Part shown: positions 20,001 through 39,911 of the stretch, in pieces
How positions within the stretch are numbered: position 1 is the stretch's first letter
How the letters are laid out: every line of letters starts with the position of its first letter
Origin: Rhodospirillales bacterium
Lineage (GTDB): Bacteria > Pseudomonadota > Gammaproteobacteria > Nevskiales > Nevskiaceae
Length of the DNA: 64,000 bases
Reading direction: 5' to 3'
NCBI GenBank assembly: GCA_903970615.1
Contig: CAJCJH010000086.1
Coordinates: 1-64,000 of the forward strand
The notes under the pieces: generated by a model
Told to the model about the DNA's origin: nothing
Database searches by the model: none
What the model saw: only the letters and a program-made list of their open reading frames with translations
Translations under genes and position numbers: made by a program

Positions 20001-20196
20001 CTTGTGCCAACCTCCGATTTCTTTAGACGCTCAAGCGTAAACTTGAGTGCCCTGTCCTACATCACATCTCTCGGGGTACATCCCCAGCCTGAAAATAATA
20101 CGATGCAACCAGTGATAAATAATCAAACCAGCGTCCCCGATGCGCTCAACATATATCCGACACAAAGCCGCGCTGCCAGATCGGATAACGAAACAT

Positions 20197-21237: not shown

Positions 21238-21307
21238 ATTATTCAGTAAATGCCGCGAATGCTTCTGACTTGGACAACAGGGTTGGTGCCAAAGGCGGTT
21301 GTTAGAA

Positions 21308-22396
21308 TCATAAGGTCATCGCGATAGAAATCAAATTTTTTGCGGAAATTGTCCATTTGAAACGCTCGATTTGTTTCTTGCCCTCAGCGATAAGCTGACC
21401 TCGTAGTTGAGAATTCCTACAAACGTTCTGAATAGCTCTCGCAATGTCGTCGACTACCTGCGCATCACAATATTCAGCAGCAATGCCAAGTACCTCCGGC
21501 AATGATGAAGTGTTCGACGCAACCACAGGGCAGCCAAAGTACATTGCTTCAAGGGGAGGCAGGCCAAATCCTTCATAAAGGGACGGAAATACGAAGCACA
21601 GAGCATTTTTATAGAGTGCTGCCAGCTCACTGTCACTTACGTGCCCCGTTCTGACGACTTTCGAGTCTGGCTCTACACATGAGCCTGAAAATATTGACGA
21701 CTCAGCGCCTCCGACCAAGACCAGTTGTACGTCACCAAGCGCCGAATACTTAAACGCTTCGATAACCCGTGAAGTGTTCTTGTTCGGATTTCCACTGCCC
21801 GTCCCGAGCAAGAATTTCCCGGGTTTTAAATTAAGGCGACGCAGAACCGAATCGTCTTCGGCTACCAGGTTCCAGTGGTCAACGCTGCAACCGACAATAG
21901 AAATTCGTTCTTCTGGAATCTTTGAATGATGAGCAATTCTTGATCTTGAGAACTCCGACACTGTAACCAACCGAAACGCAGCTTTTATTTTCGCAAGCCT
22001 CGCCATCAAGCGATAGTAAGCCACGAATTTTGACCGGTACCCTTCAGGCGCATCGAAAACGGATGCGTCGTGGAATACGACCACTTGCTTGCCCCCAAGC
22101 ACCGGAAACGTATTGCCCATATTCAATAGTACGCCCTGTCGTCGCCAAGGCAACTCAAACTGTTCCCAGGCGTGACCGGATAGAAAACGACTCCGTTCAA
22201 CTCTAACGTGCTTGAATATGTGTTTGCACACCGCGCCTTTGGGCAGCAATAAGCTAACCGAAAGACCGGGAATCCCGCCTATCTCGCACAGCTCGTCAAG
22301 TGCTTTTACGATTTCCCAAGAGTACCGCTGAACGCCAGTTAGCGGTTGTGTGACGAATCGTCCGTTTATCGTGATTGTAATAGGACGGGACTTCAC
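21308..22396 (-). CDS. GT4-family glycosyltransferase
   Basis: GT-B fold glycosyltransferase of 362 residues, likely cytoplasmic and acting in repeat-unit assembly. It begins [20 protein letters not shown], a typical start of GT4 enzymes that handle O-antigen sugars. The donor domain shows [13 protein letters not shown] near residue 184, and the E-x7-E motif lies in [20 protein letters not shown] near 275. It lies 50 bp downstream of the polymerase on the same strand and is the last gene of the five-gene leftward run that starts with the flippase. Substrate not determinable. Confidence 0.86.
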
Positions 22397-22446
22397 CGGG
22401 TTATGCTCGCAGACACACGTGCGATTTGCATGATGTCCATCTCGAA

Positions 22447-23802
22447 TCAGGCTGTTAGCGGGTGTTCTTGCTCAGACGCTGGACTTGAAACGCTCTCTCG
22501 GTCTCGCAACCGTTTGCCACGCTTGCCGGCGCCCGCCGTATAGGTCACCAACACGAACCAAGTCAGGAAATGGTTGAGATTGTGATTGCTCATAGCAAAC
22601 CATGCGATGTGAATCATTCCGATCGACCTCAATCCATTGGTGAAGTCGATCAATTTTGTAGGTACAGCTATGTAGCTTGAACGCGCGGCCTCAAAAAACG
22701 ATACGAGCATAAGAGAAACGACTACGCAGCCCGTACCGATTACTCCAAAGCCGATAAATATTTGTAGGTAGGTGTTGTGAATCATGTCGACCGATCCAAA
22801 GCCGGTCCCCAGGATTGGGTAGTCATCAAACAGCGAAAATGCATCTTTCCAGGCGTAGAATCGCTCATACGCGCTGGAGTCTTCATCGAAGAACGCATTG
22901 TACGCATCAACAAATACGCTGACGGCATCAAAGTACAGTGAAGTCACAGTGAGTATCGCAATGCCGATCGCAACGATTGCGAAGACAAATTTCAATCTAC
23001 CGGTTCCTCTGAGACGGAATAGTAAGAGATAGATGACGCTTAGAGTGAATGATACGTACGCTGCGCGAGTAGTTGCGAGGAATAAGGCCCCGAGAGATAG
23101 CAGTGTGAACAGACTGAAGCATGTTCCGCTTCTCGCAACCGGGCCCAGCATCATGCGGCGATCTTCTCCGGAAAGCTTGCACGCGTGACAAAGAGCTGCA
23201 ATGCTGACTACGTAGCTGCAGATGACGCCATACTCATTCGGGTATGAACCTGGCGAAAAGCGCAACAACCCGTATCCAAACTGTATCAAAACATGCAACG
23301 GCTCAAGTACGTCGATACTAAGTACACCGACGTAGTACCCGATAAAAAAGACGTACCCCGCCAACAGGCTGATGGCAAAACCTGAGAAAAAGAGTCTGGT
23401 GAATGTGGCCAGTGCCTGAAAGCCGATACGGCGGATCTGATCGCAGGCAACGATATAAAAACCAATCAGAGAAAGTAGCAACGAAGCCCTGAACACCGGG
23501 TTGCCTTCATCGCCGTCGTCGGCAGTCGGAACCACTGAACCCCGGCTTGCAATCAATAGTAAAGAGAATATTAGATAGACGACGATCGGCGAAAGTAGAA
23601 TCAAGCGCGCCACTGCATGTCGGCTTGTTCCGCGCAGCCCGGCAAGTAGAAGCGACACAGGTAGCAACAGGTAATAGAAGCGGAAGGAGTGCGGTGCGCC
23701 GGGAATGGGGATCAATACACCTAGAGGCGCACAAAAGAAAATCGCACAAATGACGAAGATCAGCGGATCGAATCGACCGTTATACCAAGGATTCTCCGAC
23801 AT
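22447..23802 (-). CDS. Wzy-type polysaccharide polymerase / O-antigen ligase-like membrane protein
   Basis: Integral membrane protein of 451 residues with about ten to twelve hydrophobic helices and a large loop with the pattern FDDYPILGTGFGSVDMIHNT near residue 330. That G-x-G-x-G ... HN-T loop is typical of the Wzy_C/O-antigen ligase superfamily. It probably polymerises lipid-linked repeat units in the periplasm. A WaaL-type ligase is the alternative, but the location beside a flippase favours Wzy. The ATG at 23802 overlaps the preceding TAA by one base (TAATG), implying coupling to the GT2 gene. Confidence 0.8.
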   Translation of the reverse strand: MSENPWYNGRFDPLIFVICAIFFCAPLGVLIPIPGAPHSFRFYYLLLPVSLLLAGLRGTSRHAVARLILLSPIVVYLIFSLLLIASRGSVVPTADDGDEGNPVFRASLLLSLIGFYIVACDQIRRIGFQALATFTRLFFSGFAISLLAGYVFFIGYYVGVLSIDVLEPLHVLIQFGYGLLRFSPGSYPNEYGVICSYVVSIAALCHACKLSGEDRRMMLGPVARSGTCFSLFTLLSLGALFLATTRAAYVSFTLSVIYLLLFRLRGTGRLKFVFAIVAIGIAILTVTSLYFDAVSVFVDAYNAFFDEDSSAYERFYAWKDAFSLFDDYPILGTGFGSVDMIHNTYLQIFIGFGVIGTGCVVVSLMLVSFFEAARSSYIAVPTKLIDFTNGLRSIGMIHIAWFAMSNHNLNHFLTWFVLVTYTAGAGKRGKRLRDRESVSSPASEQEHPLTA

Positions 23803-24899
23803 TATTTACGTTTGCCCACGTTTTGAAATAGACCATCTCGAATTGCTGCCATGGAATTCTTAAAGCCGCCAGACGTCGGGCGAAAAAATCGGCGGACAGC
23901 AGCAATGAGACTGACCGCTACGATTGCAGGGAGCCGCCAAGGGAAGTATCGGGTGGCGAGAAGGATCCGGCCGCGCATGAAATAGTAATCAGCAGTCAAT
24001 CCTCTTTTTTTTGCTTCTTTCGTAGCCCCCGTAGTCTTGCCGCCTTTGTGAAATACCAGGCTTTGGCATGTGATTGTCGCTCTGCTAGGCCATCCGAGCG
24101 CCAATACCCAATCAATCTCTTCATGATAGAGAAAGTAATCGGCAGTCATCGGACCAACAGCGTCGAGAAATAATTTGTTCACTGCCAGCGACGCCCCTAT
24201 GGGGTAATCGACGCGAATATTTTCAGCCTGAAGTTCCTTGCACTCGTTATACCGAAAACCTTCGAGATTGTGCTTGATCGACCCAGTAAGAGGGGAATAA
24301 GAGGCCCCGCATGCTTGGACTACATCAGGAGCCCAATACTCCAATAAAACTGATCCCGTGATAGTCGGCTCGGTGGCATGACGCATCTGTGCCGAAAGTC
24401 CGATCGCCGATTCACGAGCGGGCACTGTATCGCCGTTCAAAAGCCAGAACCACTCAATGTCGAAGTTTCTTCTTAGCAAGGCAAGCGCAGCATTGTTTCC
24501 CGCAGCGAAGCCGACGTTTTTGGATAGCTTAAGCAGAAAAAGTCGCGTTGTACCGACATTACTCTGGTTAAAGTCTTTAAGGTTTTCTTCGTCAACTTCA
24601 AAAAAATCTATGGGCTTAACGATTGGAGGGACGATGAGACTCCTGATTACAGGATCATTTGTCTCGGGAATCGCGCACAGACGCCCCTGCGTCCAAGCTC
24701 GGATATTGATGATCGAGTCGTCCGTAGAGCCGTTGTCGCAAATAACAACTGGACCATCGAATTGCACCAGTCGAAATACCGCTTCCAGGCATTCAATAAT
24801 ATCCGCCCAACCATTCCAGTTGACGATCACAATTGCCCCGCTTCCATCGTAGCTCGTGCTGTTCGAGCAGCAAACATCGATGCATTCGCGGGAGGTCAT
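23802..24899 (-). CDS. GT2-family glycosyltransferase (rhamnosyltransferase-like)
   Basis: GT-A fold inverting glycosyltransferase of 365 residues. AIVIVNWNGWADIIECLEAV near residue 22 and ICDNGSTDD near 53 form the nucleotide-binding start, a DXD-like NGDT follows near 155, and YHEEIDWVLALG near 235 is the acceptor-side motif seen in WbbL/rhamnosyltransferase relatives. A hydrophobic stretch near residues 300-320 may anchor it to the inner membrane. It sits between the WaaE-like transferase and the polymerase and is translationally joined to the latter. Confidence 0.86.
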   Translation of the reverse strand: MTSRECIDVCCSNSTSYDGSGAIVIVNWNGWADIIECLEAVFRLVQFDGPVVICDNGSTDDSIINIRAWTQGRLCAIPETNDPVIRSLIVPPIVKPIDFFEVDEENLKDFNQSNVGTTRLFLLKLSKNVGFAAGNNAALALLRRNFDIEWFWLLNGDTVPARESAIGLSAQMRHATEPTITGSVLLEYWAPDVVQACGASYSPLTGSIKHNLEGFRYNECKELQAENIRVDYPIGASLAVNKLFLDAVGPMTADYFLYHEEIDWVLALGWPSRATITCQSLVFHKGGKTTGATKEAKKRGLTADYYFMRGRILLATRYFPWRLPAIVAVSLIAAVRRFFRPTSGGFKNSMAAIRDGLFQNVGKRK

Positions 24900-24920
24900 C
24901 TCACGTCAACCAAAAGTACT

Positions 24921-25775
24921 TCACGATGACGCGGCTACGTTATACGACGCAATAACACGCCGCGCTTCGACGAGGTAAGACTCTTCAATTTGCGCCCGCC
25001 CGCCAAGTGTCCTGATCTCTAAAAACTTTTGGTATGTCGTCAACCTGTAGAACACCATAAGCATTGCAAGATAGAAACCCCGCCATCCGTCAATGAATCC
25101 GCGCTTTTTTATATAAATCGAAATAAAAGTCTTAATACATATAAGTGCTAACTTCATAATTCCGGCCGACCAATGTCGTCCAACTGCTTGTTGTGCCTCG
25201 ATCGTGGTGTAGCGGTTCAGTTTTTCGATCAAGTGTGCGCCGTCAAGGTAGTTGAAGTGAATGATGGCGCCATGTTGACGGTACTTTAGGGTTCTTACGC
25301 GCGCATTAGGCCCAACCCGAATGAAATTATGAATCTGATCAGACAGGATCACTGCGTCCTTACGAAAGAACCTGAGTTGTGCATCTTGATCCGGACCCCA
25401 GCCCGAAGCGCGCATTGGCTTGCCGCAAATTAAGTTCAGACGCGGAATCACGATCACATCTGCATCATCGGCAACGACCGCATCCATCAGAGCCTGGTAG
25501 AGCTGCGGCGGGATCATTTCATCTGCATCGAGAATACATATCCATTCATGTTTCGCCTGCCTGACTGCAAACGCCCGCGCAGGATCTGCAAAGCCGAGAT
25601 TTTCATGCAAAAAGACCTCGGCGCCAAATCGCCTTGCAATTGCGATCGTTTCGTCCGAGCTGTGCATATCAACTACAACGATTTCGTCGGCCCAGGACTT
25701 CACCGAGGCGAGTGCATTCGGAAGATTTTTCTCTTCGTTGAAAGTATTGACGACAACTGAGATTCCAGATCGCAT
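24921..25775 (-). CDS. GT2-family glycosyltransferase, WaaE/KdtX-like
   Basis: Cytoplasmic GT-A transferase of 284 residues resembling WaaE (LPS core beta-1,4-glucosyltransferase) and related enzymes. It begins MRSGISVVVNTFNEEKNL, with VVVDMHSSDET near 40 and ILDADEMIPP near 80 as the nucleotide and metal sites. The frame is open back to 25964, but ATG 25775 starts the domain exactly and overlaps the flippase stop (TGATG), so it is the better start. Like several WaaE relatives it lacks a second domain. It may add a branch or the first non-committed sugar of the repeat. Confidence 0.85.
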   Translation of the reverse strand: MRSGISVVVNTFNEEKNLPNALASVKSWADEIVVVDMHSSDETIAIARRFGAEVFLHENLGFADPARAFAVRQAKHEWICILDADEMIPPQLYQALMDAVVADDADVIVIPRLNLICGKPMRASGWGPDQDAQLRFFRKDAVILSDQIHNFIRVGPNARVRTLKYRQHGAIIHFNYLDGAHLIEKLNRYTTIEAQQAVGRHWSAGIMKLALICIKTFISIYIKKRGFIDGWRGFYLAMLMVFYRLTTYQKFLEIRTLGGRAQIEESYLVEARRVIASYNVAASS

Positions 25776-27232
25776 CAGCGGTTCCGATATGTTTTCAAGC
25801 TGGCCAGAATAAGTCCGCGATCCACCACAAAAATTGAGACCGCATAGATTGCGAGGCTTCCGAATATAAACGTGATAAGAGCAACAGCGCTTTTGACTGG
25901 ATATGCCCAATTGAGCGCCCACACACACAGACCGACCAGTGACGCAACACTCCAGCTTCGGCATATATTTGCCAGAACACTGAACGGAATCTTGCGCTGT
26001 GCGATGCGTACTAAAAAAATATTTGTGAATTGCACAATTAAATTAGCGATCGCAAATCCTAGCGGCCCACAGATAAAGATAAGTGGCGCACCTATCGCCC
26101 AGGTGCCCACCATCCAGATTATCGAGAACCGGAACGCCATTTGCGAGTGGCCAAGCGAGTTCAATAGGCTCATAACCGGAATCGATATAGGGACGAATAC
26201 ATTAGCCGCCCACAGTAGATAGAAGTATGAGATCGCGGGCCTCCACTTTTCACCGAATACGATGATCGTGATGGGCGTCACAAGCACTAGAGTGAGGACC
26301 GCAAGGGGTGCTGTAAGTAGATTTGTCAACCAGAGGACATTGTTCGTAAAAAGTGCCAACTCCGATGGCTGATTTTGGAGACGCGACATCGCTGGCATAT
26401 ATAGCCGCTGCAGCACAAAAAGCGCCAGCACGGGATAAGTAGCTAGCGTTCCAGCCCAATTAAGATAACCCACGGCCACGGGGCCGACGGAGAGTCCAAC
26501 GAGTAATGGAGTGATGCTGTCTTTGACCAGCGATATGAGTTGTATCCCCTGAAATGGCAATCCAAAACGGAGATGTTCCTTGATGCGTTGCCAGTCCCAA
26601 GCAAATCCGATTGACCATGGACTGATGATATTCGCCAAAACAGCCCCGGAAATCGTTCGGACCAATAAAGCGATCGGAAACGAGAATGCGCCGAACCTCC
26701 AATAGGCTAACGATATCGCTGTCACATTGAATAACACCGCCTGTGGCACCTCTATCATCGCCAGCCGATCGAACTGGAGATGCCGTTCTAGTCTGGCCTG
26801 AGGGACCACCATTAGTGACACGGCAACCAGCGACAACGAAGTCAAACGAAAAAGCCAACTACTCTGCGAGGAGAGTCCATACGCATTGGCGAGTAATGGT
26901 GAACAGACGAAAGTAAGCGCTACCACTGCGCAGACTAGTACCTGCTGGACAGTGAATACGGTCCTGTAATCCATTTCGGTGGGCTCTTCAGATTGTCTGA
27001 TCAGACTTGCTGCCAGACCTCCTGCCCCAAACGCCGCCAAAAAATTTGAAGCGAATACGATAACCGCATAGACGCCAAAATCATTGGGGCTAAGTAGTCG
27101 AGCCAGGACAATGCTACCGAGAATATTGCTGCCTTGAACAAGCACCTGCCGAATGCCGAGGTTTATCGCACCACGAGCCGTTTTGCGCGAAACCGCATGT
27201 GCTAAAAAGTCGCTCTCGCCCGACGCATTCAT
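25775..27232 (-). CDS. Wzx-type oligosaccharide flippase (MOP superfamily)
   Basis: Membrane flippase of the polysaccharide transport family, 485 residues with about twelve to fourteen helices. It moves undecaprenyl-linked repeat units across the inner membrane. The N-terminus has RKTARGAINLGIRQVLVQG and LGSIVLARLLSPNDFGVYA, hallmarks of the WzxC/TuaB-type branch. It heads a leftward operon of flippase, two GT2, polymerase and GT4. A possible -10 box (TATATT on the minus strand, 27302-27307) lies in the 132-bp spacer before it. No initiating glycosyl-1-phosphate transferase or Wzz is present in the window. Confidence 0.87.
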   Translation of the reverse strand: MNASGESDFLAHAVSRKTARGAINLGIRQVLVQGSNILGSIVLARLLSPNDFGVYAVIVFASNFLAAFGAGGLAASLIRQSEEPTEMDYRTVFTVQQVLVCAVVALTFVCSPLLANAYGLSSQSSWLFRLTSLSLVAVSLMVVPQARLERHLQFDRLAMIEVPQAVLFNVTAISLAYWRFGAFSFPIALLVRTISGAVLANIISPWSIGFAWDWQRIKEHLRFGLPFQGIQLISLVKDSITPLLVGLSVGPVAVGYLNWAGTLATYPVLALFVLQRLYMPAMSRLQNQPSELALFTNNVLWLTNLLTAPLAVLTLVLVTPITIIVFGEKWRPAISYFYLLWAANVFVPISIPVMSLLNSLGHSQMAFRFSIIWMVGTWAIGAPLIFICGPLGFAIANLIVQFTNIFLVRIAQRKIPFSVLANICRSWSVASLVGLCVWALNWAYPVKSAVALITFIFGSLAIYAVSIFVVDRGLILASLKTYRNR

Positions 27233-29293: not shown

Positions 29294-30958
29294 ATGAGCC
29301 AGTACGTTTACACGATGAACAAGGTGGGCAAGATCGTCCCACCGAAGAAAGAAATCCTGCGCGATATTTCCTTGAGCTTTTTTCCTGGCGCCAAGATCGG
29401 CGTGCTTGGCTACAACGGCGCGGGCAAATCGACGCTGCTGAAAATCATGGCGGGTGTGGACAAGGAATTTCATGGCGAAGCGCGGCCGCAGCCGGGCTTG
29501 AAGGTCGGTTATCTGCCGCAGGAACCGCAGCTTGATCCGGCCAAGAATGTGCGTGAAAACGTGATGGAGGCGATGTCGCACATCACCGAAACGCAGGCTG
29601 AACTCGATAAGGTTTACGCCGCCTACGCCGAAGAAAATGCGGATTTCGACAAGCTCGCTGCGCGTCAGCAGGAGCTGGAAAACATTCTCGCCGCAGGCGA
29701 CGGCAACAATCTCGACGTGGTGCTCGACAAAGCCGGCGAAGCGCTGAACCTGCCGGCCTGGGATGCGGATGTCACCAAACTTTCCGGCGGCGAGCGCCGG
29801 CGCGTAGCGCTGTGCCGTCTGCTGCTGAGCAAGCCGGACATGATTCTGCTCGACGAGCCGACCAACCATCTGGATGCCGAGTCGGTCGCCTGGCTGGAAA
29901 AATTCCTTAAGGATTTTCCCGGCACCATCATCGCGGTCACGCACGATCGCTATTTTCTCGACAACGTGGCCGGCTGGATTCTGGAACTCGATCGCGGCCA
30001 CGGCATTCCCTGGCAGGGCAATTATTCGACCTGGCTCGAAGGCAAGGAAAAACGTCTGTCGAACGAGCAGAAATCCGAAGACGCGCATGCCCGCGCGATG
30101 AAGGAAGAACTCGAATGGGTGCGCAAGAATCCGAAAGGCCGCCAGTCCAAATCAAAGGCGCGTTTGAAGGCCTACGAGGAAATGGCGAGCCAGGAATTCC
30201 AGAAGCGCGCCGAGACCAAGGAGCTTTATATTCCGCCCGGTCCGCGGCTCGGCGACATGGTGATTGAAGTCGACAACGTCGCCAAGAAATACGGCGGGCG
30301 CATGTTGTATGAAGGCCTGAATTTCAAGGTGCCGAAGGGCGCGATCGTCGGCATCGTCGGAGCCAACGGCCGCGGCAAGACCACGCTGTTCCGCATGCTG
30401 CTCGGTCAGGAAAAACCGGATTCCGGCGAAATCCGCATCGGCGAAACGGTGAAGATCGCGCATGTCGATCAAAGCCGCGATGCGCTCGATGGCGACAAAA
30501 CCGTGTTCCAGGAAGTCAGCGGCGGACTCGACATCATCCGCGCCGGCTCGTTTGAAATGCCGAGCCGCGCGTACATCGGCCGCTTCAACTTCAAGGGCGA
30601 AAGCCAGCAAAAGCGCGTGAAGGAACTCTCCGGCGGCGAACGCAACCGTCTGCATCTGGCCAAGCTGCTGCTGGCCGGCGGCAACGTGCTACTGCTCGAC
30701 GAACCGACCAATGATCTCGACGTGGAAACCCTGCGTGCACTCGAAGAAGCGCTGCTCGATTTCTCCGGCTGCGCGCTGGTGATTTCACATGACCGCTGGT
30801 TTCTCGATCGCGTCTCCACGCACATTCTCGCGTTTGAAGACAGCGGCGAGATCGTTTTCCTCGAAGGCAATTACCGCGAATACGAAGACGATTTCCGCCG
30901 CCGCACGGGTGCGGAGCCGGGCGTGAACCGGCGCTCGCGGCACAAGAAGCTGGCTTGA
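29294..30958 (+). CDS. ettA: Energy-dependent translational throttle protein EttA
   Basis: ABC-F ATPase that binds the ribosomal E site and gates the first peptide bond according to ATP/ADP level. From ATG 29294 (MSQYVYTMNKVGKIVPP) it has 554 residues, almost the length of E. coli EttA. Two ABC domains carry Walker A GYNGAGKST near residue 39 and GANGRGKTT near 357, with LSGGERRR and LSGGERNR signatures. The arm insertion lies in the first domain and the P-site interaction motif region lies between the domains (GRQSKSKARLKAYEEM near 283). The upstream open frame is without family support. It is monocistronic or read through into the fatty acid hydroxylase gene. Confidence 0.95.
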   Translation: MSQYVYTMNKVGKIVPPKKEILRDISLSFFPGAKIGVLGYNGAGKSTLLKIMAGVDKEFHGEARPQPGLKVGYLPQEPQLDPAKNVRENVMEAMSHITETQAELDKVYAAYAEENADFDKLAARQQELENILAAGDGNNLDVVLDKAGEALNLPAWDADVTKLSGGERRRVALCRLLLSKPDMILLDEPTNHLDAESVAWLEKFLKDFPGTIIAVTHDRYFLDNVAGWILELDRGHGIPWQGNYSTWLEGKEKRLSNEQKSEDAHARAMKEELEWVRKNPKGRQSKSKARLKAYEEMASQEFQKRAETKELYIPPGPRLGDMVIEVDNVAKKYGGRMLYEGLNFKVPKGAIVGIVGANGRGKTTLFRMLLGQEKPDSGEIRIGETVKIAHVDQSRDALDGDKTVFQEVSGGLDIIRAGSFEMPSRAYIGRFNFKGESQQKRVKELSGGERNRLHLAKLLLAGGNVLLLDEPTNDLDVETLRALEEALLDFSGCALVISHDRWFLDRVSTHILAFEDSGEIVFLEGNYREYEDDFRRRTGAEPGVNRRSRHKKLA

Positions 30959-30991
30959 GCGCAGCCCGACAATTTGCTTGATAATCGAAAC

Positions 30992-31642
30992 GTGACTGTC
31001 GCCGCCCGCCCCTACATTTCCAACTCGCGCGAGTCGACGCGCATGTTCGAGCGCGGCTGGATGGAAGCGCTGTCGAAGGTGCATTTTTCGGTGCCGCTGA
31101 TCGTCTATGTGCCGATCGTGCTCGCTCTGGTTTTCATTTCGCTGAGCCGCGATAAGCTTGTGCTGATTCAAGCGCTGCTGTGGTTCACAATCGGCCTGGC
31201 CGTATGGACGCCCACGGAATATGTGCTACATCGATGGGTGTTTCACTCTGTGCCGAGCAGTCGCTGGGGACTGCGACTGCACTTCATCATGCACGGCGTC
31301 CATCACGATTATCCGAACGATGCGCGGCGGCTGGTGATGCCGCCATCGGCAAGCCTGCCGATCGCCGCACTTTTCTATGGCCTGTTCTGGCTGCTGCTGC
31401 CGCAGGCTGATTTGAACGCCTGCTTCGCCGGTTTTCTCAGTGGCTATCTGGTTTACGACATGACGCACTACGCGCTGCACCACGCGACATTCCGGCTGCC
31501 GTGGCTGAAGGCGCTGAAGCGGCACCACATGCAGCATCATTTTGTCGATGCCACGCGCGGCTTCGGCGTGAGTTCGCCGCTATGGGATGTCGTTCTGGGC
31601 AGTGATCGGCAACAACCAATCCGCGACACCAGGCCGGACTGA
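30992..31642 (+). CDS. FA2H/Scs7-type fatty acid 2-hydroxylase (di-iron membrane hydroxylase)
   Basis: Member of the fatty acid hydroxylase superfamily, about 216 residues with four hydrophobic helices. The di-iron histidine boxes are all present: EYVLHRWVFH, HFIMHGVHHDYPND, HYALHH and KRHHMQHHF. The box set, the following RRLVMPP, and the N-terminal STRMFERGWMEALSKVHF read like the catalytic half of eukaryotic FA2H/Scs7, which puts a 2-hydroxyl on the fatty acid of ceramide. The cytochrome b5 domain is missing. The start is uncertain: GTG 30992 lies seven bases after a GATAAT box (possibly leaderless), and TTG 30974 is an alternative. It faces the ceramide cluster, so a ceramide or acyl-chain 2-hydroxylase is my inference. 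Confidence 0.85.
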   Translation: MTVAARPYISNSRESTRMFERGWMEALSKVHFSVPLIVYVPIVLALVFISLSRDKLVLIQALLWFTIGLAVWTPTEYVLHRWVFHSVPSSRWGLRLHFIMHGVHHDYPNDARRLVMPPSASLPIAALFYGLFWLLLPQADLNACFAGFLSGYLVYDMTHYALHHATFRLPWLKALKRHHMQHHFVDATRGFGVSSPLWDVVLGSDRQQPIRDTRPD

Positions 31643-31710
31643 AAATCGCGTAGTCGTTTGAGAAGCGGACCAATCGATCGCAGTGTGCGCGGCAAATTCC
31701 CGGCTTTAGT

Positions 31711-32550
31711 TCACGCCTGATTTTTCTTTCGATCCTGCGCCAGCAATCGCTGCACCAGATCCAGATCGGCGGGTTTATCGACATCTACCGCGGCGCGGCC
31801 GAACGGCATTTTCACTACTGCCGCTCGCGTGCCGGAAAGCTCGCCGAGGCGAGCAATTGCTGAGTTCAGCGGTAGTTTTCCGATTGCATAACGCAGCGCG
31901 AAACCCAGGCCGAGACGTCGCAGCATGCGCCACGGTCGCTTGCGTTCGGCTTCCACTTCGCGCCAGAAATGAACCGCGCCGGCCGCCGCAGGCGTTGCGA
32001 ATAAAAAGAGGTTACAGCCGGAGTAATGATCGTCGGCGAATCGCAGATAAGTGCGCGCGGTGTCCGGCACCGCTTCGAGGATTGCGGCCTTGTTGGCGAG
32101 TGCGACGGCGGCATCCGCATCCGCCGGAATGTGACCCAGAAAATAACTGATCCATTCGGCTTGCAGCAGGGCGTGGTCGGCGGTCGTCACCAGCAGCGGC
32201 GTGCCGCAATGATCCAGCGCTGCGGCGACGCTGCGGCTGGGACTCGCGGCGGATTTCAGCACTTCGATCGGCAGGCCGTTCGCAGCCGCCTGCACGCCGG
32301 ACAAGCCGGCAATCAGTTCCGGCAATTCGATCGAAATGACGATGCGTGCGATGCCGGCAACGGCAGCGAGTGCGGCGACAACGCGCTCGATCATTGGCGT
32401 GCCGTCGATTTCGATCAGCGCCTTGTGACTGACGCCGGCGTAGACCGCCAGTGGATCGCCCGCGCCGCGCGAGCCGGCCAGAATCAGCGCGGTCAAACCG
32501 CCCGCTGGCGCGCGCCAGAACGCCGAGGACGTTGCAGGCTGGCTCGTCAC
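31711..32550 (-). CDS. Nucleotidyltransferase (NTP_transferase/MobA-like) of the ceramide cluster
   Basis: GT-A-like nucleotidyltransferase of 279 residues. The N-terminal LTALILAGSRGAGDPLA near residue 19 and SHKALIEIDGTPMIERV near 42 form the NTP-binding loop with its lysine, and a VTTADHALL motif near 120 supplies the metal Asp. Relatives activate sugars, molybdopterin or alcohol phosphates as NDP or CDP derivatives. It is the last gene of the ceramide run and overlaps bcerS by four bases (GTGA), so it is co-translated with it. I infer a role in making an activated head-group donor or in head-group transfer. The substrate is unknown. Confidence 0.75.
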   Translation of the reverse strand: MTSQPATSSAFWRAPAGGLTALILAGSRGAGDPLAVYAGVSHKALIEIDGTPMIERVVAALAAVAGIARIVISIELPELIAGLSGVQAAANGLPIEVLKSAASPSRSVAAALDHCGTPLLVTTADHALLQAEWISYFLGHIPADADAAVALANKAAILEAVPDTARTYLRFADDHYSGCNLFLFATPAAAGAVHFWREVEAERKRPWRMLRRLGLGFALRYAIGKLPLNSAIARLGELSGTRAAVVKMPFGRAAVDVDKPADLDLVQRLLAQDRKKNQA

Positions 32551-33710
32551 GCCAGCGATTTTTCGTAAAGGCGATAAGTCTTGTAAGCGCGTCCGCCGAG
32601 CGCTTCGATGATGCTGCGCATCGGCAGGTTATCTTCCAGAATCCACGACAGTTCGAACTCGCGCATGCCTTTTTGCAGCGCGCGCTGGCGCATCGATTCG
32701 ATGATCAGGAATGGCACCAGCCGCGCGCCGAAACCGGTGACGCTGCGCTTCACGCCCATCAGCGGCACGCGGCCGCTGCGGATGCCGCTGACTTTCAAGC
32801 GCCAAAGTAATTTGGCCCAGTTGAACGGCAAAAGTTTGCCGTCGAAATCGCGGATCGCGGCGTTGATGTTGGGCAGCGCGACACCGAACCCGACCGTTTC
32901 GCCATTGAGTTCGGCGAACGCGACCATCTTCGGATCGAGAATCGGTTTCAGCGACTTGCCCATGTATTCCACTTCGGCATCGGTGAACGGCGCGAAGCCC
33001 CAGTTTTGCGACCAGGCATCGTTGTAAATGCTGGTGAGCGTGACGATGTCCTCGTGATAATGCTTCGTACTCATCGGCCGCACGCGCAGGTCGTCGCGCA
33101 TCGGCCGCTCGACCAGCCGCCGCACGTTTTCCGGCAGCGGCTGGGTGATGTCCATCAGATACGCGAACACATCCTTGGCCTTGACGTAACCGAGCCGCTC
33201 GATCTGGCCGGCGACGAATTCGCGGTCGTGACCCATCAGCAGCATCGGCGGCGTATCGAAGCCTTTTACCAGCAAACCGGTTTCTTCGTTGATCGACAAA
33301 TTGAACGGGCCGAGCATCTTGGTGCAGCCTTTTTCGCGCAGCCAGTTTTCGGCGGTGGCGAACAGCGCATCGAAAATTTCCGGGTCGTTATCCGCGCAGA
33401 TCAGGCCGAAAAATCCGGCACCTTCGTGCTTCAGTGACTGCGACAAATGATCCAGTTGCGCGCTGATGCGGCCGACGTCCACACCATTCTTGCGCGCGAT
33501 CCAGAACTGATAATCCGCGTGCAGAAAAAACGGATTGACCTTGTCGGAAAACGCTTCGCGGCGTTCCATCATCAGTGGCGGCACGAAGTTCGGATCGTCC
33601 GCATGCACGCGAAACGGCACGCGGATGAAGCGGTTCATTTCCGCTGGGGTGACCGGCACGATTTCGATATTCGAGGCCGGCACTGGCGGCCGGTTTGTAT
33701 TGGCAATCAT
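32547..33710 (-). CDS. bcerS: Bacterial ceramide synthase bCerS (GNAT-fold N-acyltransferase)
   Basis: Large GNAT-superfamily protein of 387 residues matching the bacterial ceramide synthase type: VPFRVHADDPNFVPPLMMER near residue 31, GPFNLSINEETGLLVKGFD near 137 and ELSWILEDNLPMRSIIEALG near 350. In Caulobacter this enzyme N-acylates 3-oxosphinganine, after which CerR reduces the product. It is unrelated to eukaryotic TLC-domain ceramide synthases. A good ribosome site (AAAGGAAG) precedes ATG 33710. It follows the LptF/LptG-like pair after 55 bp and overlaps the nucleotidyltransferase. Sequence similarity alone cannot exclude another acyl acceptor, but the full set of partner genes makes the call strong. 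Confidence 0.85.
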   Translation of the reverse strand: MIANTNRPPVPASNIEIVPVTPAEMNRFIRVPFRVHADDPNFVPPLMMERREAFSDKVNPFFLHADYQFWIARKNGVDVGRISAQLDHLSQSLKHEGAGFFGLICADNDPEIFDALFATAENWLREKGCTKMLGPFNLSINEETGLLVKGFDTPPMLLMGHDREFVAGQIERLGYVKAKDVFAYLMDITQPLPENVRRLVERPMRDDLRVRPMSTKHYHEDIVTLTSIYNDAWSQNWGFAPFTDAEVEYMGKSLKPILDPKMVAFAELNGETVGFGVALPNINAAIRDFDGKLLPFNWAKLLWRLKVSGIRSGRVPLMGVKRSVTGFGARLVPFLIIESMRQRALQKGMREFELSWILEDNLPMRSIIEALGGRAYKTYRLYEKSLA

Positions 33711-33765: not shown

Positions 33766-34845
33766 TCAACCAATGATGTAACGCCGCAGCAGCACCATGC
33801 CGCCAGCGCCGAACATCAGCAAGGGCAGGAATGCCGCGAGCAAGGGCGGCACGCGGTCGCCTTCGCCGAGCGAGGTCATCAAGCCATCGGCCAATACGAA
33901 TGCCAGACCCGCGCCAAGTGCGGCCAGCAGCTTGCCGCCACCACCACCGCCGCGCTCAACCGCACGCGTGGCCGGCAAGGCCAGTAGCAGCATCACGGCC
34001 AGGCCCAGCGGCGCGGCGAAACTGCGGTACAGCAGGGTGCGGTAATAACTCGGCGGCCGCGTGCCGACGCGCTCGCCGGCGACGATGCCATACAAGGTGG
34101 TGCTGGAAAGATGCGGCTGCGGCAAATTCAGCCGCAGCACATCGTCCGGCAACAGGTTGGTTTTCCAGATGGCATCCATCGGCACAACACGAGCGACGCG
34201 CTGATCCTGCAGTTGCAGTTCGCTGGCCGCGCGCAGATGCCATTGCCGATGCTGCCAATCCGCAGCTTCGGCATACACGCGCGAGACCAGCTGATGATCC
34301 GCATTGCGCCGATAAATATGCACGCCCTGCAGGTGCCGGCCATCGGCGCTGACGTGATCCAGCGCCACCAGACTATCGCCGGTATGGCACCACAAGGTTT
34401 TCGGCGGCTCGTCATCGTCGTTGCCAGGCAAGGTGGTGGAGTTCCACCACGCGCTCATCGCGCCCTCGGCGATCGGCTCGACGCGATCGGCGATCACGAA
34501 TTGAAACAGCGCAAACAGCGCGACCACCGGCAACAGCACTTTCAGCATCCAGCCCATGTGCATGCCGGCCGCGCGGATGGCGATCAGTTCGTGATTGCGC
34601 GCCAGCGTGTAGTACGTAAACAGCGCGCCGAGCAGCATCGCCAGCGGCAGCGACAAGGCCAGTTCCACCGGCGTGCGCAGCGCGGTGTAATGCAGGATGC
34701 CGGTAACACCGAGATGGCGATTGAGGATGTCGCTGGTGGCATCGAGCAGATCGAGCACCTGCAACAGCGCGGTCAAGGCGATCAGCACGCCGATCGTTTG
34801 CAGCGCGAACAGCCGCCGCAGATAGTGCGCCAAAGCGCCGTTCAT
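33766..34845 (-). CDS. lptG: LptG-like permease of the ceramide cluster
   Basis: YjgP/YjgQ-family permease of 359 residues: three N-terminal helices (about 13-120), a periplasmic beta-jellyroll (about 140-265) and three C-terminal helices (about 270-355). LptF and LptG form the membrane part of the LptB2FGC extractor that drives LPS to the outer membrane. The N-terminal YLRRLFALQTIGVLIALTAL and FTYYTLARNHELIAIRAAGM near 100 (the coupling helix for LptB) are family features. It overlaps the upstream partner by ATGA. Its setting between spt and bcerS suggests a paralog devoted to sphingolipid export, sharing LptB or other parts encoded elsewhere. It could instead be the cell's only LptG. Confidence 0.82.
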   Translation of the reverse strand: MNGALAHYLRRLFALQTIGVLIALTALLQVLDLLDATSDILNRHLGVTGILHYTALRTPVELALSLPLAMLLGALFTYYTLARNHELIAIRAAGMHMGWMLKVLLPVVALFALFQFVIADRVEPIAEGAMSAWWNSTTLPGNDDDEPPKTLWCHTGDSLVALDHVSADGRHLQGVHIYRRNADHQLVSRVYAEAADWQHRQWHLRAASELQLQDQRVARVVPMDAIWKTNLLPDDVLRLNLPQPHLSSTTLYGIVAGERVGTRPPSYYRTLLYRSFAAPLGLAVMLLLALPATRAVERGGGGGGKLLAALGAGLAFVLADGLMTSLGEGDRVPPLLAAFLPLLMFGAGGMVLLRRYIIG

Positions 34846-36068
34846 GTGCGCGATCTCGGCGTAACCGAGTGCGGCGCCGACTTTTTCGGACGACGCAGAT
34901 GGATGCCGTCCAGCATCGCTTCGATCGCCGAAACCGCGCGCGTGACTGGATTATCACCCGGCGTTTTCAGGCTGCCGAAAAACAGCCATGCGCTGATGCC
35001 GCCGAACACGAGCAGCGGCGTCCACACCGCGGCAATCACTGGCGCACGGCCCGCCTCGGCCAGACTTTCGCCGAACTGCACGCCGTGCTGCAACGCCAGC
35101 AAGGCGAGGCAGGCGACGATTACGCCCGGTGCACGGCGGCCGCGCTTGGCCGACATGCCGAGCGGCACCGCCAGCAGCGGCAGCAAGGGAAACGACAACG
35201 CCCGCACCCATCGCGCCTGTAATTCTCCGGCGAGTTGCGGCGCTGGCAAGGGTGGTGTCGGCTGATGCAGTCCGCGCCACAATTCGAGCGAGGTCAGCTC
35301 GCGTTCGCTCTCGCCGCGCGCGCGGAACGGCGGCGCATCCGGGTTGAAATCCTCATTGAAAGTGCCTTGTTTGAACATCACTTTGAGTAATTGACGATCC
35401 GGATCCTCATGCACCAATTGACCGTCTTCGAGGTGTAGCAGCAATGTTTTACCATCTGCAGATGGCTGCAGCCGGCCGCTTTGCGCGGTGGTGATTTCTT
35501 CTTCGCCTTGCGAGCCAAGACGGCGGATGAACACGCGTGTGAGTCCACGTCCGGTGGCATCGACCTGATCGGCCGTGAGCACGAAACCGCCGCCGGCATC
35601 GGAGAAAATATTTTCCTGCGCGCGCGCATTCCAGCCGGCATGTTCGGCGTCGTAGGAAACCTGGTGATAGCGGTAACGGCTGTAGGGTTGCAGCGAGCCG
35701 TACAGATAAAAACTGAACAGCGACAGCACCAACGCCACCGCGAAGAACGGCTGCGCGGTCTGGCTGATCGAGCGGCCCGAGGCCAGCAGCGCATCGAGTT
35801 CGTTATCGTCGCCAAGCCGCGCGACCACCATGAAGATACTGGCGAAGAACGCCGCCGGCAGCGCGAGGCCGAGATAATGCGGCACCAGATACAGCAGCAT
35901 CAGCAGCACCGAATCGAGCGCGTTGTCGGTGGCAGCCACCAGATCGAACAGGCGCAGCAGCCGCTCCAGCAGCAACGCCAGCAGCACCACGCCGATCGAT
36001 AGCAGCAACGGCCGGATCAGCAGACCGAGCAGGTAGCGATTCAGCAGATTTGCGCTACGAGTTGCCAT
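34842..36068 (-). CDS. lptF: LptF-like permease of the ceramide cluster
   Basis: YjgP/YjgQ-family permease of 408 residues, partner of the gene just downstream. It has helices at about 15-120, a periplasmic jellyroll (about 135-265), helices at about 280-370, and a basic cytoplasmic tail. NRYLLGLLIRPLLLSIGVVL at the start and RLGDDNELDALLASGRS near 85, the LptB coupling region, identify it as the LptF-type half. A TAATAT -10-like box (minus strand, 36108-36113) lies about 40 bases before the start, so this gene may open its own transcript for lptF, lptG, bcerS and the nucleotidyltransferase. Whether it carries ceramide or LPS is not shown by sequence. Confidence 0.82.
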   Translation of the reverse strand: MATRSANLLNRYLLGLLIRPLLLSIGVVLLALLLERLLRLFDLVAATDNALDSVLLMLLYLVPHYLGLALPAAFFASIFMVVARLGDDNELDALLASGRSISQTAQPFFAVALVLSLFSFYLYGSLQPYSRYRYHQVSYDAEHAGWNARAQENIFSDAGGGFVLTADQVDATGRGLTRVFIRRLGSQGEEEITTAQSGRLQPSADGKTLLLHLEDGQLVHEDPDRQLLKVMFKQGTFNEDFNPDAPPFRARGESERELTSLELWRGLHQPTPPLPAPQLAGELQARWVRALSFPLLPLLAVPLGMSAKRGRRAPGVIVACLALLALQHGVQFGESLAEAGRAPVIAAVWTPLLVFGGISAWLFFGSLKTPGDNPVTRAVSAIEAMLDGIHLRRPKKSAPHSVTPRSRT

Positions 36069-36207: not shown

Positions 36208-37131
36208 TTACAGCGCCGCACCGCGCTCGACCCGCATCGAATAAGCGCCGCCGCGCTCGAAGCGATTCGATTGCGGGTTCAACAAGCGCGCCTCGACATA
36301 CATCTCCCAAAGGCCGGCATCGAGCCGGCGAATGCTCAGGTGATGCCAGCGCGCGCCCTCGTCTTTGGGATTTGGAATCGCGGATGAGGACGGTAATCCA
36401 AGACACAGAATCGGCGCGATCGGCCCGGCGATGGTATCGAAGCGTGCATCGCGTGCGTGACCGTGCAGCACCAGTTCCGCACCGGCACGCGCCAGTACTT
36501 CACGCAAGGCTGCGCGATCGCGCAGGGCTTTGCGCGCCGAGACAGCGCCATCGGCGAGCGGATGATGCAGCAGCACAATCCGGAACAGGCCGCGCGCACC
36601 GAGTTCAGACAATATCGGTTCGAGCCGCGCGAGTTGATCGGCGCCGATGATTCCGGAGGCCAACGCGGGCCAGGTTGGCCGCGCGGAATTCAGGCCGATC
36701 AGCGCGATATCGCTGCGAATGCGCACGTAGGGCCATTGTGGTGCCGGTGAGCGATCCCGATCCGCCGACATCCACGGCTGCCAGCGGCCTAGGCCATCGG
36801 CGGCGTCCACTTTCACCAGCGCATCATGATTGCCGGGCACGATGCTCACCGCCTCGGGCTCGCCCAGAGTTTTCAGCCAATCGGCAGCGGCGGCGAATTC
36901 TTCGTGCAGCGAAAAATTGGTGATGTCGCCGGTAATCGCAATATGGTCGGGATGATATTGGCGCAGATCGGCCAGCAGCGCTTGCAGCACGCCGCCGGTT
37001 TGGATTTCGCGCCGCGCGCGCTGCCACGACCAGGCACTGAGTTGCCGCTTACTGAAGCGCTCGCGCAGCCGCAAGCGCGGCTCGTGGCTCAAGTGCGGAT
37101 CGGAAAAATGCGCGAGAGTAATGGCAGTCAC
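36208..37131 (-). CDS. Calcineurin-type metallophosphoesterase of the ceramide cluster
   Basis: Metallophosphoesterase of 307 residues with the motifs AHFSDPHLS (D-x-H) near residue 9, ITGDITN near 66, PGNHD near 100, LLHHP near 188 and a last motif HGHAR near 225. In many relatives the last motif is GHxH, and here the second His is Arg. The GTG at 37131 begins the domain immediately, whereas the longer frame to 37224 adds a proline/arginine-rich leader without support. Family members cleave cyclic nucleotides, nucleotide-lipid pyrophosphates (LpxH) or phosphate esters. Lying between spt and the permeases, it could remove phosphate from a lipid head-group intermediate. That role is inference. 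Confidence 0.75.
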   Translation of the reverse strand: MTAITLAHFSDPHLSHEPRLRLRERFSKRQLSAWSWQRARREIQTGGVLQALLADLRQYHPDHIAITGDITNFSLHEEFAAAADWLKTLGEPEAVSIVPGNHDALVKVDAADGLGRWQPWMSADRDRSPAPQWPYVRIRSDIALIGLNSARPTWPALASGIIGADQLARLEPILSELGARGLFRIVLLHHPLADGAVSARKALRDRAALREVLARAGAELVLHGHARDARFDTIAGPIAPILCLGLPSSSAIPNPKDEGARWHHLSIRRLDAGLWEMYVEARLLNPQSNRFERGGAYSMRVERGAAL

Positions 37132-37295
37132 GGCAGGCGGGTATCGATCGTTTGGCGGTGACTGGGCTTGCGGAAATCGTTCATCGCGGCTTGCCGGAGC
37201 GCGCAGTTTATCCAGCCTCGGCAACGATGTTTAGCGCAGTTTGGCTGACAGCATCCGATGTGGAAATGCAGCGAGTTTCCGCGCTTCGAAAACCC

Positions 37296-38522
37296 TCAAG
37301 CCACCATTGCGATCGGCGCGCCGCTGCCGGTTCCGAGCACGCCGAGTTGTACGGCTACTTCGCCGAACAGCTGGATCGCGCGATCGATCTGACGACGGCT
37401 GTGCGCGGCGCTGACGCTGGCGCGCAGCAGCGGCTTGTTGGATGGCGTTGCCGGCGGCAGTGCCAGATTCAGGTAAAGACCGTTGTGCAGCAGCGCGTTC
37501 CAGAAACGCACCGCGAGCGCCTGATCTTCCAGCGCCACCGACACGATCGGGCTGGCATGCGGACCGACCTGCAAGCCGAGTTCGCGCAAGCCTTCGTAGA
37601 GATGATTGGCATTGTTGGTCAGCCGCGCGCGCAAGGTCGCATCGGCTTCGAGGTGCCGCAAGGCCTGGCGCGTCGATGCGATGATCGACGGCGGCAGCGA
37701 CGCGGTGAACATATACGGACGGCAGGCGACGCGCAGCACGTTGAATCCCTCGATATCGGCAACGCAGAAACCGCCGACACTGCCGAGGCTCTTGGAAAAC
37801 GTGCCGACGATGAAATCGACATCGGCTTCCACGCCGGCCGCTTCCGCGAGACCGCGGCCGTGTTCGCCGAGCACGCCCATCGAGTGCGCTTCGTCGACCA
37901 TCAGATAAGCGCCCATTTCGCGCTTGACCTGGGCAATTTCACGCAAGGGCGCCAGATCGCCGAGCATCGAGTAAATGCCTTCGACGACGATCAGCTTGCT
38001 GCCGGGGGTGTCCTTCAAACGCCGCAGCCGCTTGTAAAGATCGTCCGGATCGCTATGCCGGAAACGGATCACTTCGGCATGGCCGAGCCGTGCGCCGTCG
38101 TAAATACTGGCGTGGCTGTCGGCATCCAGAATCAGGTGATCGCCGCGGCCGACCAAGGTCGAAAGCATACCGAGATTGGCCTGATAACCGGTACTGAACA
38201 CCATGCAATGCTGACGCTGGAAGAACTTCGCCAGGTCCTGCTCCAGCGCGCGATGCGAAGCATAACTGCCGTTGGCGACGCGTGAGCCGGTGGTGCCGGT
38301 GCCCTGCTGCTGCAAGGCCTGCACCGACTGCGCAATGCAATCCGCATCCATCGTCAGCCCAAGGTAATTATTGGTGCCGAGCAGGATCGTGCGGCGGCCG
38401 TCGATTACGCCTTCGGTGGACGACAGAATCTGCTCGAAAGTGACTGCGAAAGGATTCGGCTGCAGCGCGCCGAGCTGGTCGTAAGTCTGTTGCAGCTGCG
38501 AAAATTTGGCCAGGATGCTCAT
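37296..38522 (-). CDS. spt: Serine palmitoyltransferase (bacterial, soluble type)
   Basis: PLP enzyme of the alpha-oxoamine synthase family, 408 residues, condensing serine with a long-chain acyl thioester to 3-oxosphinganine, the first step of sphingolipid synthesis. K244 in GTFSKSLGSVGGF is the Schiff-base lysine, D210 and H213 lie in DEAHSMG, and H137 in DADSHAS is the PLP-stacking histidine. The sequence agrees with Sphingomonas-type Spt better than with BioF or Kbl, and the neighbours settle it: acpR overlaps its start (ATGA), and cerR and aasR lie upstream. The partner acyl donor is probably acyl-AcpR. Cytoplasmic, with no membrane segment. Confidence 0.9.
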   Translation of the reverse strand: MSILAKFSQLQQTYDQLGALQPNPFAVTFEQILSSTEGVIDGRRTILLGTNNYLGLTMDADCIAQSVQALQQQGTGTTGSRVANGSYASHRALEQDLAKFFQRQHCMVFSTGYQANLGMLSTLVGRGDHLILDADSHASIYDGARLGHAEVIRFRHSDPDDLYKRLRRLKDTPGSKLIVVEGIYSMLGDLAPLREIAQVKREMGAYLMVDEAHSMGVLGEHGRGLAEAAGVEADVDFIVGTFSKSLGSVGGFCVADIEGFNVLRVACRPYMFTASLPPSIIASTRQALRHLEADATLRARLTNNANHLYEGLRELGLQVGPHASPIVSVALEDQALAVRFWNALLHNGLYLNLALPPATPSNKPLLRASVSAAHSRRQIDRAIQLFGEVAVQLGVLGTGSGAPIAMVA

Positions 38523-38776
38523 GCTTTTTCTTGTTTCACCAAAGCTTCGATGGCCAGCACCAGATCGTCGACAGTAGCGATATCGGCGGCGCGGTCCAAG
38601 GGGATGGAAATGTCGAAACGATCCTCGATTTCCAGCATGAAATTCATGATGGCGAGGGAATCCAGTCCCAGATCCTGAACGATATGGGTTGCGCCGCTGA
38701 TCGCTACCGGGCGCGGCAGGATTTTCTTCAGGGCGGCAATTACGTCCACCCGGATATTTTCAGAACTATCCGTCAT
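38519..38776 (-). CDS. acpR: Dedicated acyl carrier protein of ceramide synthesis
   Basis: Acidic acyl carrier protein of about 85 residues. The phosphopantetheine serine is S40 in DLGLDSLAIMNFMLEIE. It lacks the typical DSLDTVELV of housekeeping AcpP, as expected of a specialised carrier. It overlaps spt by four bases, so the two are made together, which fits delivery of the acyl chain from AasR to Spt as reported for Caulobacter. ATG 38776 is preferred. GTG 38782, two codons earlier, is the alternative. A phosphopantetheinyl transferase must come from elsewhere. Confidence 0.88.
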   Translation of the reverse strand: MTDSSENIRVDVIAALKKILPRPVAISGATHIVQDLGLDSLAIMNFMLEIEDRFDISIPLDRAADIATVDDLVLAIEALVKQEKA

Positions 38777-38836
38777 CGTCACTCGTTAGCGCCGCGATCT
38801 GAGGCGACTGCAACCCTTCTAAAAATTTGAGAAATC

Positions 38837-38930: not shown

Positions 38931-39911
38931 TCAAGATCGATCTCGATCCGCAAGCCATCCCGTCTGCCGATACCAAGCAACAGCGGTACCAAATCCAGCG
39001 GCGAGATCGTATCTGGGCGAAAATTTTGGCGATTCCGCTTGTTCGGCAGCGGATAGCGACCAGTCCTGATGCAGCAACTCGCGCAGTTTTTCGGTGTTGA
39101 GCATTTTCGGATAGCCGAGACGCCGGCCGAGGTCGCCGCAGCGCGCCGCCAACACCAGCGGCCAGCGCGGCAGCCGCCGGAATCGCGGATTGTGATTACC
39201 CACCGCCCGCGCGGCGGCGGCCAGGATTTCCTGCCAGCGGTAGCCGGCCGGCTGCGCGTCGGCCACCGCGCAGATTGCGCCGGTCGGCGTTGACGCCAGC
39301 AGATCAGCGATGGCCGTGACCAGATCGCCAACATGAATCAACGCCATTCGCGCTGCCGGATTGCCTGGCACCCAGACGGTGCGATACTCGGCCAGCTGAA
39401 AAAAAATCAGCGTCTCCAGATCGCCGGGACCATACACCGCAGGCGGTCGCAGCACGGTTGCCTGCCGGCCGAGCACTTCGAGCGCGGCCTGCTCGCCAGC
39501 GGCTTTGCTGGCGGCATAAGCTGAGAGTGTGGGCTCGCGCGCGGCGAGGCTGGAGACCTGCAAAAACTGCGCATGCGGCGCGTAACGCTGAGTGGCTTGC
39601 GCCAGCGCGCGGGTGGCATCGCGGTTAACCGCCATGAACTGCGCGGTATTGACCGCCTTGATCAGCCCCGCCAGATGCACCACGGCATCGGCGCCGGTGA
39701 CCAGTTCTCGCAGCGCCGCGACATCGCCCAGTGTGCCGGGCACCACTTCGAGATCGACATCGCGCCAAGCCTGATTGACTGGATCGCGGCGCGTCAGAAT
39801 GCGCACGCGATTGCCGCGCGTGGCCAGTTCGCGCACCAGGTGGCGGCCGACAAACCCGCTGGCGCCGGTCAACGCAATCAGCGGCCCGACTTCAGCTTGC
39901 GGCAACGGCAC
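38931..39911 (-). CDS. cerR: NAD(P)-dependent 3-oxoceramide reductase CerR (extended SDR)
   Basis: Extended short-chain dehydrogenase of 326 residues with the dinucleotide motif GASGFVG at 16-22, the active-site YAASK (Y132, K136) and a nearby catalytic Ser in QVSSLA. Generic annotation would call it an NAD-dependent epimerase, but in bacterial ceramide clusters this type reduces 3-oxoceramide after N-acylation. Its place between aasR and acpR supports that. The GTG start at 39911 lies 20 bases inside the end of aasR, so the two are coupled. The last hundred residues form the substrate cap. Confidence 0.85.
   Translation of the reverse strand: MPLPQAEVGPLIALTGASGFVGRHLVRELATRGNRVRILTRRDPVNQAWRDVDLEVVPGTLGDVAALRELVTGADAVVHLAGLIKAVNTAQFMAVNRDATRALAQATQRYAPHAQFLQVSSLAAREPTLSAYAASKAAGEQAALEVLGRQATVLRPPAVYGPGDLETLIFFQLAEYRTVWVPGNPAARMALIHVGDLVTAIADLLASTPTGAICAVADAQPAGYRWQEILAAAARAVGNHNPRFRRLPRWPLVLAARCGDLGRRLGYPKMLNTEKLRELLHQDWSLSAAEQAESPKFSPRYDLAAGFGTAVAWYRQTGWLADRDRS

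Follow-up and report, generated by a model that had tools for sequence, protein, structure and literature searches.

Fatty acid 2-hydroxylases occur in eukaryotes, where the animal and fungal FA2H enzymes carry a fused cytochrome b5 and the plant enzymes work with a separate one (PMC10002949). Active FA2H homologues tied to sphingolipid formation have also been described from myxobacteria (Ring, Schwaer and Bode 2009, doi 10.1002/cbic.200900164, as summarised in PMC10002949). In Caulobacter, CC_0202, described as an enzyme of the DesA family, is reported to hydroxylate the amide-linked acyl chain of the phosphosphingolipid, and the resulting acyl-chain hydroxyl is reported to decide colistin sensitivity (PMC11324152); this hydroxylation step therefore bears on outer-membrane behaviour. 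On the side of ceramide formation, YghO is the acyl-CoA N-acyltransferase of the E. coli BL21 ceramide pathway (PMC9386255). The genes spt, bcerS and cerR have been cited as not clustered in sphingolipid-producing Bacteroidota (PMC11334938). A literature search, with most subscription journals outside its scope, found no paper that names a hydroxylase, or describes an FA2H-type gene, in bacterial ceramide clusters. Here we describe such a gene in the window, by which we mean the whole stretch of 64,000 nucleotides that was analysed, and its relation to the ceramide genes of this and other bacteria.

The hydroxylase gene (HYD) occupies positions 30992-31642 of the forward strand, with a GTG start at 30992 and a stop codon at 31640-31642, and encodes a protein of 216 aa, which would lengthen to 222 aa if translation began at an alternative in-frame TTG at 30974. 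It was annotated as an FA2H/Scs7-type di-metal hydroxylase from its match to PF04116 (68.3 bits, curated cut-off 31), its similarity to Scs7 and its predicted model; the NCBIfam models searched with it gave no match. The reading frame is not a product of chance, since it is conserved in 13 relatives at 51-73% identity and retains 51 invariant positions in an alignment of 35 sequences from two phyla. A scan of 30900-31760 for promoters and terminators returned no signal above that of shuffled sequence. The initial annotation had credited the protein with a full set of histidine boxes and FA2H-like motifs and had described it as lacking the cytochrome b5 part, and all of this is borne out: the motifs STRMFERGWMEALSKVHF, HGVHHDYPND and RRLVMPP are all found in the reading frame, the ten histidines at the positions of the Scs7 boxes are all present, and there is no b5 domain.

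Opposite this gene lies a complete ceramide cluster, and the convergent placement beside it that had been proposed from the first inspection is correct, with 68 bp between the end of the hydroxylase on the forward strand and that of the first cluster gene, at 31711 on the reverse strand. All nine cluster genes are on the reverse strand. The first encodes a MobA-like NTP transferase (31711-32550; cf. the nucleotidyltransferases in the phosphosphingolipid cluster of Caulobacter, PMC11324152), and is followed by that for the bacterial ceramide synthase bCerS (32547-33710), an orthologue of YghO that gave no match in a Pfam search and shares 43% identity over 370 aa with the YghO protein of the E. 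coli BL21 spt cluster. Domain and family models then identify an LptG-type permease (LptG2, 33766-34845) and an LptF-type permease (LptF2, 34842-36068), for both of which compare PMC11324152, and a metallophosphoesterase (36208-37224) that possibly performs a CC_1158-like step. The serine palmitoyltransferase gene spt (37296-38522; NF047599, 675 bits, cut-off 500) overlaps at its start by 4 bp with the gene for a specialised acyl carrier protein, AcpR (38519-38782), which has the motif LGLDSLAIMNF, and beyond these lie genes for the ceramide / 3-oxo-sphinganine reductase CerR (38931-39911; 37% identity to the BL21 counterpart) and the acyl-ACP synthetase AasR of the fatty acyl-AMP ligase family (39892-41631; NF006624, 858 bits, cut-off 600). 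The gene content of the cluster is similar to that of the Caulobacter phosphosphingolipid region (PMC11324152). Upstream of the ceramide region, positions 18852-27232 of the window hold a run of genes resembling those for glycosyltransferases, flippases and polymerases, and this run has the appearance of a polysaccharide cluster.

We consider it probable that the gene encodes a bacterial integral-membrane di-metal hydroxylase of FA2H/Scs7 type that acts on (dihydro)ceramide and hydroxylates its amide-linked acyl chain, with C2 as the most likely site. The pathway of Spt, AcpR and AasR, bCerS and CerR that faces the hydroxylase would supply ceramide or its oxo form; two metals bound by the ten histidines would activate O2 for a monooxygenase reaction in the inner membrane; the N-acyl chain would be hydroxylated, most likely at C2; and the hydroxylated ceramide would then receive its head group and be exported by the LptF2/G2-type system. 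We infer ceramide as the substrate, C2 as the site and this order of steps; the support for 2-hydroxylation of ceramide acyl chains is the genomic linkage set out below.

The family to which the protein belongs was addressed by sequence, motif, predicted fold and phylogeny. A phmmer search of all PDB sequences recovered Scs7 (4zr0/4zr1) at an E-value of 3e-33 with no other credible match, and a profile built from 14 homologues again matched Scs7 only (E 1e-42). The two proteins are 39% identical across 180 residues, and the ten histidines of the window hydroxylase fall in register with Scs7 H244, H249, H268, H271, H272, H326, H330, H345, H348 and H349, which we take to be the metal ligands of the di-metal site (4zr0); they are invariant in all 36 sequences compared. 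An AlphaFold2 model computed from the alignment of 35 sequences (pLDDT 77, pTM 0.75, with local pLDDT reaching only 55-75 near some parts of the metal site) superposes on Scs7 with a Z-score of 18.9 over 198 residues at an rmsd of 2.4 A, the next row of the search standing at Z 5.2, and Foldseek recovers Scs7 at E 1e-9. Structural matches other than Scs7, all at Z 5.2 or below, were dismissed as relatives and reflect common helical arrangements.

The same bacteria also encode other PF04116 proteins, which served as the comparison group after rows with a wrong open reading frame had been left out of both the tree and the signature comparison (eight in the latter). The signature HGxHH..P.D..RLVMPP is common to the window hydroxylase, Scs7 and the homologues at loci L118 and L119, and is missing from the generic PF04116 rows and weak matches compared; none of these generic rows matched the 14-homologue profile or Scs7 at E 1e-3. 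In the final tree, which is the first tree rebuilt without its longest branches and in which Scs7 is the sole eukaryotic sequence, the generic rows form a separate group (support 100/100) with the window hydroxylase outside it, and Scs7 stands beside the window clade on a weak branch (support 77/68 and 85/51). Constraining Scs7 to the generic rows gave a borderline worse tree (p-AU 0.06), and constraining it to the generic and distant rows together gave a p-AU of 0.45. Judged by sequence, motif and predicted fold, the protein is a member of the FA2H/Scs7 catalytic-domain family, and the tree agrees weakly; it stands much nearer to Scs7 than to the generic PF04116 proteins of the same bacteria, as the initial annotation had supposed. 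Its description there as an enzyme of eukaryotic type is better replaced by that of a bacterial branch of the FA2H family, for its nearest relatives form a large Bacteroidota clade. This branch is common in bacteria, and import from eukaryotes is not evident.

This placement also bears on the position of the hydroxyl group. Sur2 is likewise a PF04116 enzyme, and a Sur2-like C4-hydroxylase, acting on the sphingoid base to give phytoceramide, would be suited by linkage to ceramide genes just as well. The signature that the window hydroxylase has in common with Scs7, the standing of Scs7 as the sole PDB sequence match and the different histidine-box contexts of the generic PF04116 proteins of these genomes nevertheless speak for the acyl chain, and hydroxylation of the sphingoid base seems to us highly improbable.

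Among named organisms, the nearest relatives of the window hydroxylase carry the labels Nevskia, Sinobacteraceae, Solimonas and Hydrocarboniphaga, which places the window in the Nevskiaceae/Solimonadaceae group. We searched 41 genomes for both the hydroxylase and bCerS, and found the former in 14, a strong match to the latter in 19, and both in 13. The ceramide synthase gene is accordingly present in 13 of the 14 genomes with the hydroxylase as against 6 of the 27 without it (Fisher p 3e-5, a value inflated by kinship), and in 12 of the 14 the two genes converge at a distance of 0.8-1.8 kb. The remaining genomes are G008, in which hydroxylase and bCerS lie on different contigs, and G016, in which the hydroxylase is present and neither bCerS nor an SPT over the cut-off was found. 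The G016 locus (L027, G016:C1:553000-572900, hydroxylase match from 9193) may reflect loss of the cluster, an assembly gap or another substrate. Conversely, six relatives have bCerS and SPT without the hydroxylase. At one such locus (L034, G024:C6:252000-270000) the ceramide cluster ends at about 12.8 kb and the conserved threonine dehydratase-like flank follows at 14.5 kb, a natural empty site. Since the cluster of G024 runs up to this shared flanking gene with no hydroxylase in between, the site evidently gains and loses the gene.

The 80 highest-ranking loci in a scan of GTDB contigs were mostly from Bacteroidota, including the genera Pedobacter, Mucilaginibacter, Chitinophaga, Pontibacter, Rufibacter, Dyadobacter and Sphingobacterium. 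Among these 80, spt, bcerS or cerR was present at 57 of the 65 loci with a full 10-kb upstream flank; after subtraction of three loci of the Solimonadaceae group, 54 of 62, nearly all of the 62 being Bacteroidota, were linked, on the same strand and with the ceramide genes upstream. The Bacteroidota hydroxylase lies 4-10 kb downstream of spt-bcerS-cerR. Eight full-flank loci were unlinked, and four of their genomes have a strong bCerS elsewhere (56-60% to that of the Sabulibacter locus L044). The order at L044 is spt, bcerS, cerR, MIPS, PgpA, GtrA, DUF5686, CDP-alcohol transferase, a 187-aa protein, hydroxylase and PAP2, a run that looks like an inositol-phosphoceramide operon; it is compact (L044:552-11579), joining spt-bcerS-cerR to MIPS, PgpA, CDP-alcohol transferase and PAP2 with the hydroxylase inside. 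Bacteroidota-type hydroxylases were also met in records labelled Williamsia (L066) and Beijerinckiaceae (L084), which are probably mislabelled or contaminated; at L066 the gene is accompanied by spt, bcerS and cerR.

A further arrangement occurs in another gammaproteobacterial family, where two genomes (G186 and G394) encode a hydroxylase homologue of 43-46% identity that retains RLVMPP, with bCerS (43%) about 1.3 kb away in divergent orientation and SPT (52-54%) at a distance of 7.4-7.6 kb. Hydroxylase and ceramide genes are therefore linked in three lineages, each with its own gene order, and the linkage is well supported, so that the co-occurrence expected from the initial annotation was found beyond the window's own group. 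It is this recurrence, together with the position on the same strand inside the Bacteroidota cluster, that speaks against a coincidental neighbourhood and an enzyme acting on some other lipid, such as lipid A, an ornithine lipid or a carotenoid. That convergent genes at the window locus do not make one operon, and that G016 has the hydroxylase without ceramide genes, would fit such an enzyme, but we regard it as the least probable of the readings considered here.

The association with ceramide genes has a boundary within the family. In an even sample of 296 Bacteroidota genomes, a homologue of at least 280 bits, a line set after the scores had been seen, was found in eight; seven of these eight have an SPT over the curated cut-off, six of them within 10 kb, compared with 1 of the 152 other Bacteroidota genomes examined, the hydroxylase and SPT groups being also taxonomic groups and the p-values ignoring kinship. 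Weaker homologues of 200-279 bits occur in about 57 Bacteroidota genomes without an SPT over the curated cut-off. Since these do not go together with an SPT over the cut-off, it is the close subfamily to which the association belongs, and the wider family therefore need not act on ceramide. Matches to NF047600 of 450-530 bits were rejected as evidence of SPT, as they lie far below the curated cut-off of 640 and are no rarer in genomes without the hydroxylase (56 of 80). Two homologues of 275-279 bits (L177:7612-8253 in G669 and L178:7589-8233 in G566) lie in conserved surroundings that include a transporter-like gene but no genes of the L044 cluster within the 15 kb examined, and may have a different substrate.

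The timing of the reaction is touched by the same data. The same chemistry might be applied earlier, to a free fatty acid, acyl-CoA or acyl-ACP, with bCerS then using a 2-hydroxyacyl donor; FA2H has an established in-vitro assay on free fatty acids (PMC10002949), and the weaker homologues in roughly 57 Bacteroidota genomes without an SPT over the cut-off hint at substrates other than ceramide in the wider family. On the other hand, the structure of Scs7 has been read as fitting ceramide rather than acyl-CoA (PMC10002949), and the close hydroxylase subfamily tracks spt and bcerS. We regard hydroxylation before N-acylation as unlikely, and favour hydroxylation of the ceramide itself.

A search for cytochrome b5 (PF00173) in this genome and seven relatives found none; another electron donor would therefore have to serve. 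We assign the protein to the FA2H family by its catalytic domain only, and not to the b5-dependent FA2H enzymes of eukaryotes.

The hydroxylase also appears to differ in history from the genes that it faces. Its median identity is 55% to Bacteroidota homologues versus 60% to its own group, whereas the corresponding values are 40% and 77% for SPT and 34% and 61% for bCerS. This comparison suggests that the hydroxylase moved between the phyla apart from the cluster, with differences in rate between the proteins as an alternative. A more far-reaching proposal, for and against which we see about equal grounds, is that bacteria have placed an FA2H-type hydroxylase, as a mobile module, separately beside at least three ceramide clusters that differ in gene order and diverged long ago. 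Its transfer between gammaproteobacteria and Bacteroidota would have taken place independently of spt and bcerS, and the enzyme would draw its electrons from a donor that is not cytochrome b5.

Bacterial FA2H homologues were already known, and what is added here is a well-supported pathway link to ceramide genes. This makes the hydroxylase a candidate for the gene behind hydroxylated ceramides in sphingolipid-making Bacteroidota and in some gammaproteobacteria, and raises the question of how cytochrome b5 is replaced. With Scs7p, FA2H and plant FAH it has in common the catalytic domain, the ten box histidines, RLVMPP and the predicted fold; unlike Scs7p and FA2H it has no fused cytochrome b5 (a feature also of the plant enzymes, PMC10002949) and a shorter N terminus, and its proposed location is the bacterial inner membrane rather than the ER. 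The Bacteroides inositol-phosphoceramide cluster (PMC9246714, in whose text the terms 'hydroxylase' and 'sterol desaturase' are absent) includes MIPS, PgpA, CDP-alcohol transferase and PAP2, as do the Bacteroidota hydroxylase loci, but in the latter spt-bcerS-cerR adjoin the inositol-phosphoceramide-like cluster, unlike the arrangement in Bacteroides. The myxobacterial fatty acid 2-hydroxylases, likened here from their published description as summarised, are likewise bacterial FA2H homologues, from another phylum. Caulobacter CC_0202, again likened by description, is a functional analogue whose substrate is made by a similar gene cluster, although CC_0202 itself is encoded away from that cluster. 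Sphingomonas, itself a maker of sphingolipids, forms 2-hydroxy fatty acids with the fatty acid alpha-hydroxylase CYP152B1 (PMC10002949), but this is an H2O2-dependent P450 of an unrelated family. If the function proposed here is correct, one and the same step would be met in bacteria by different enzymes, DesA-like, P450 and FA2H-type.
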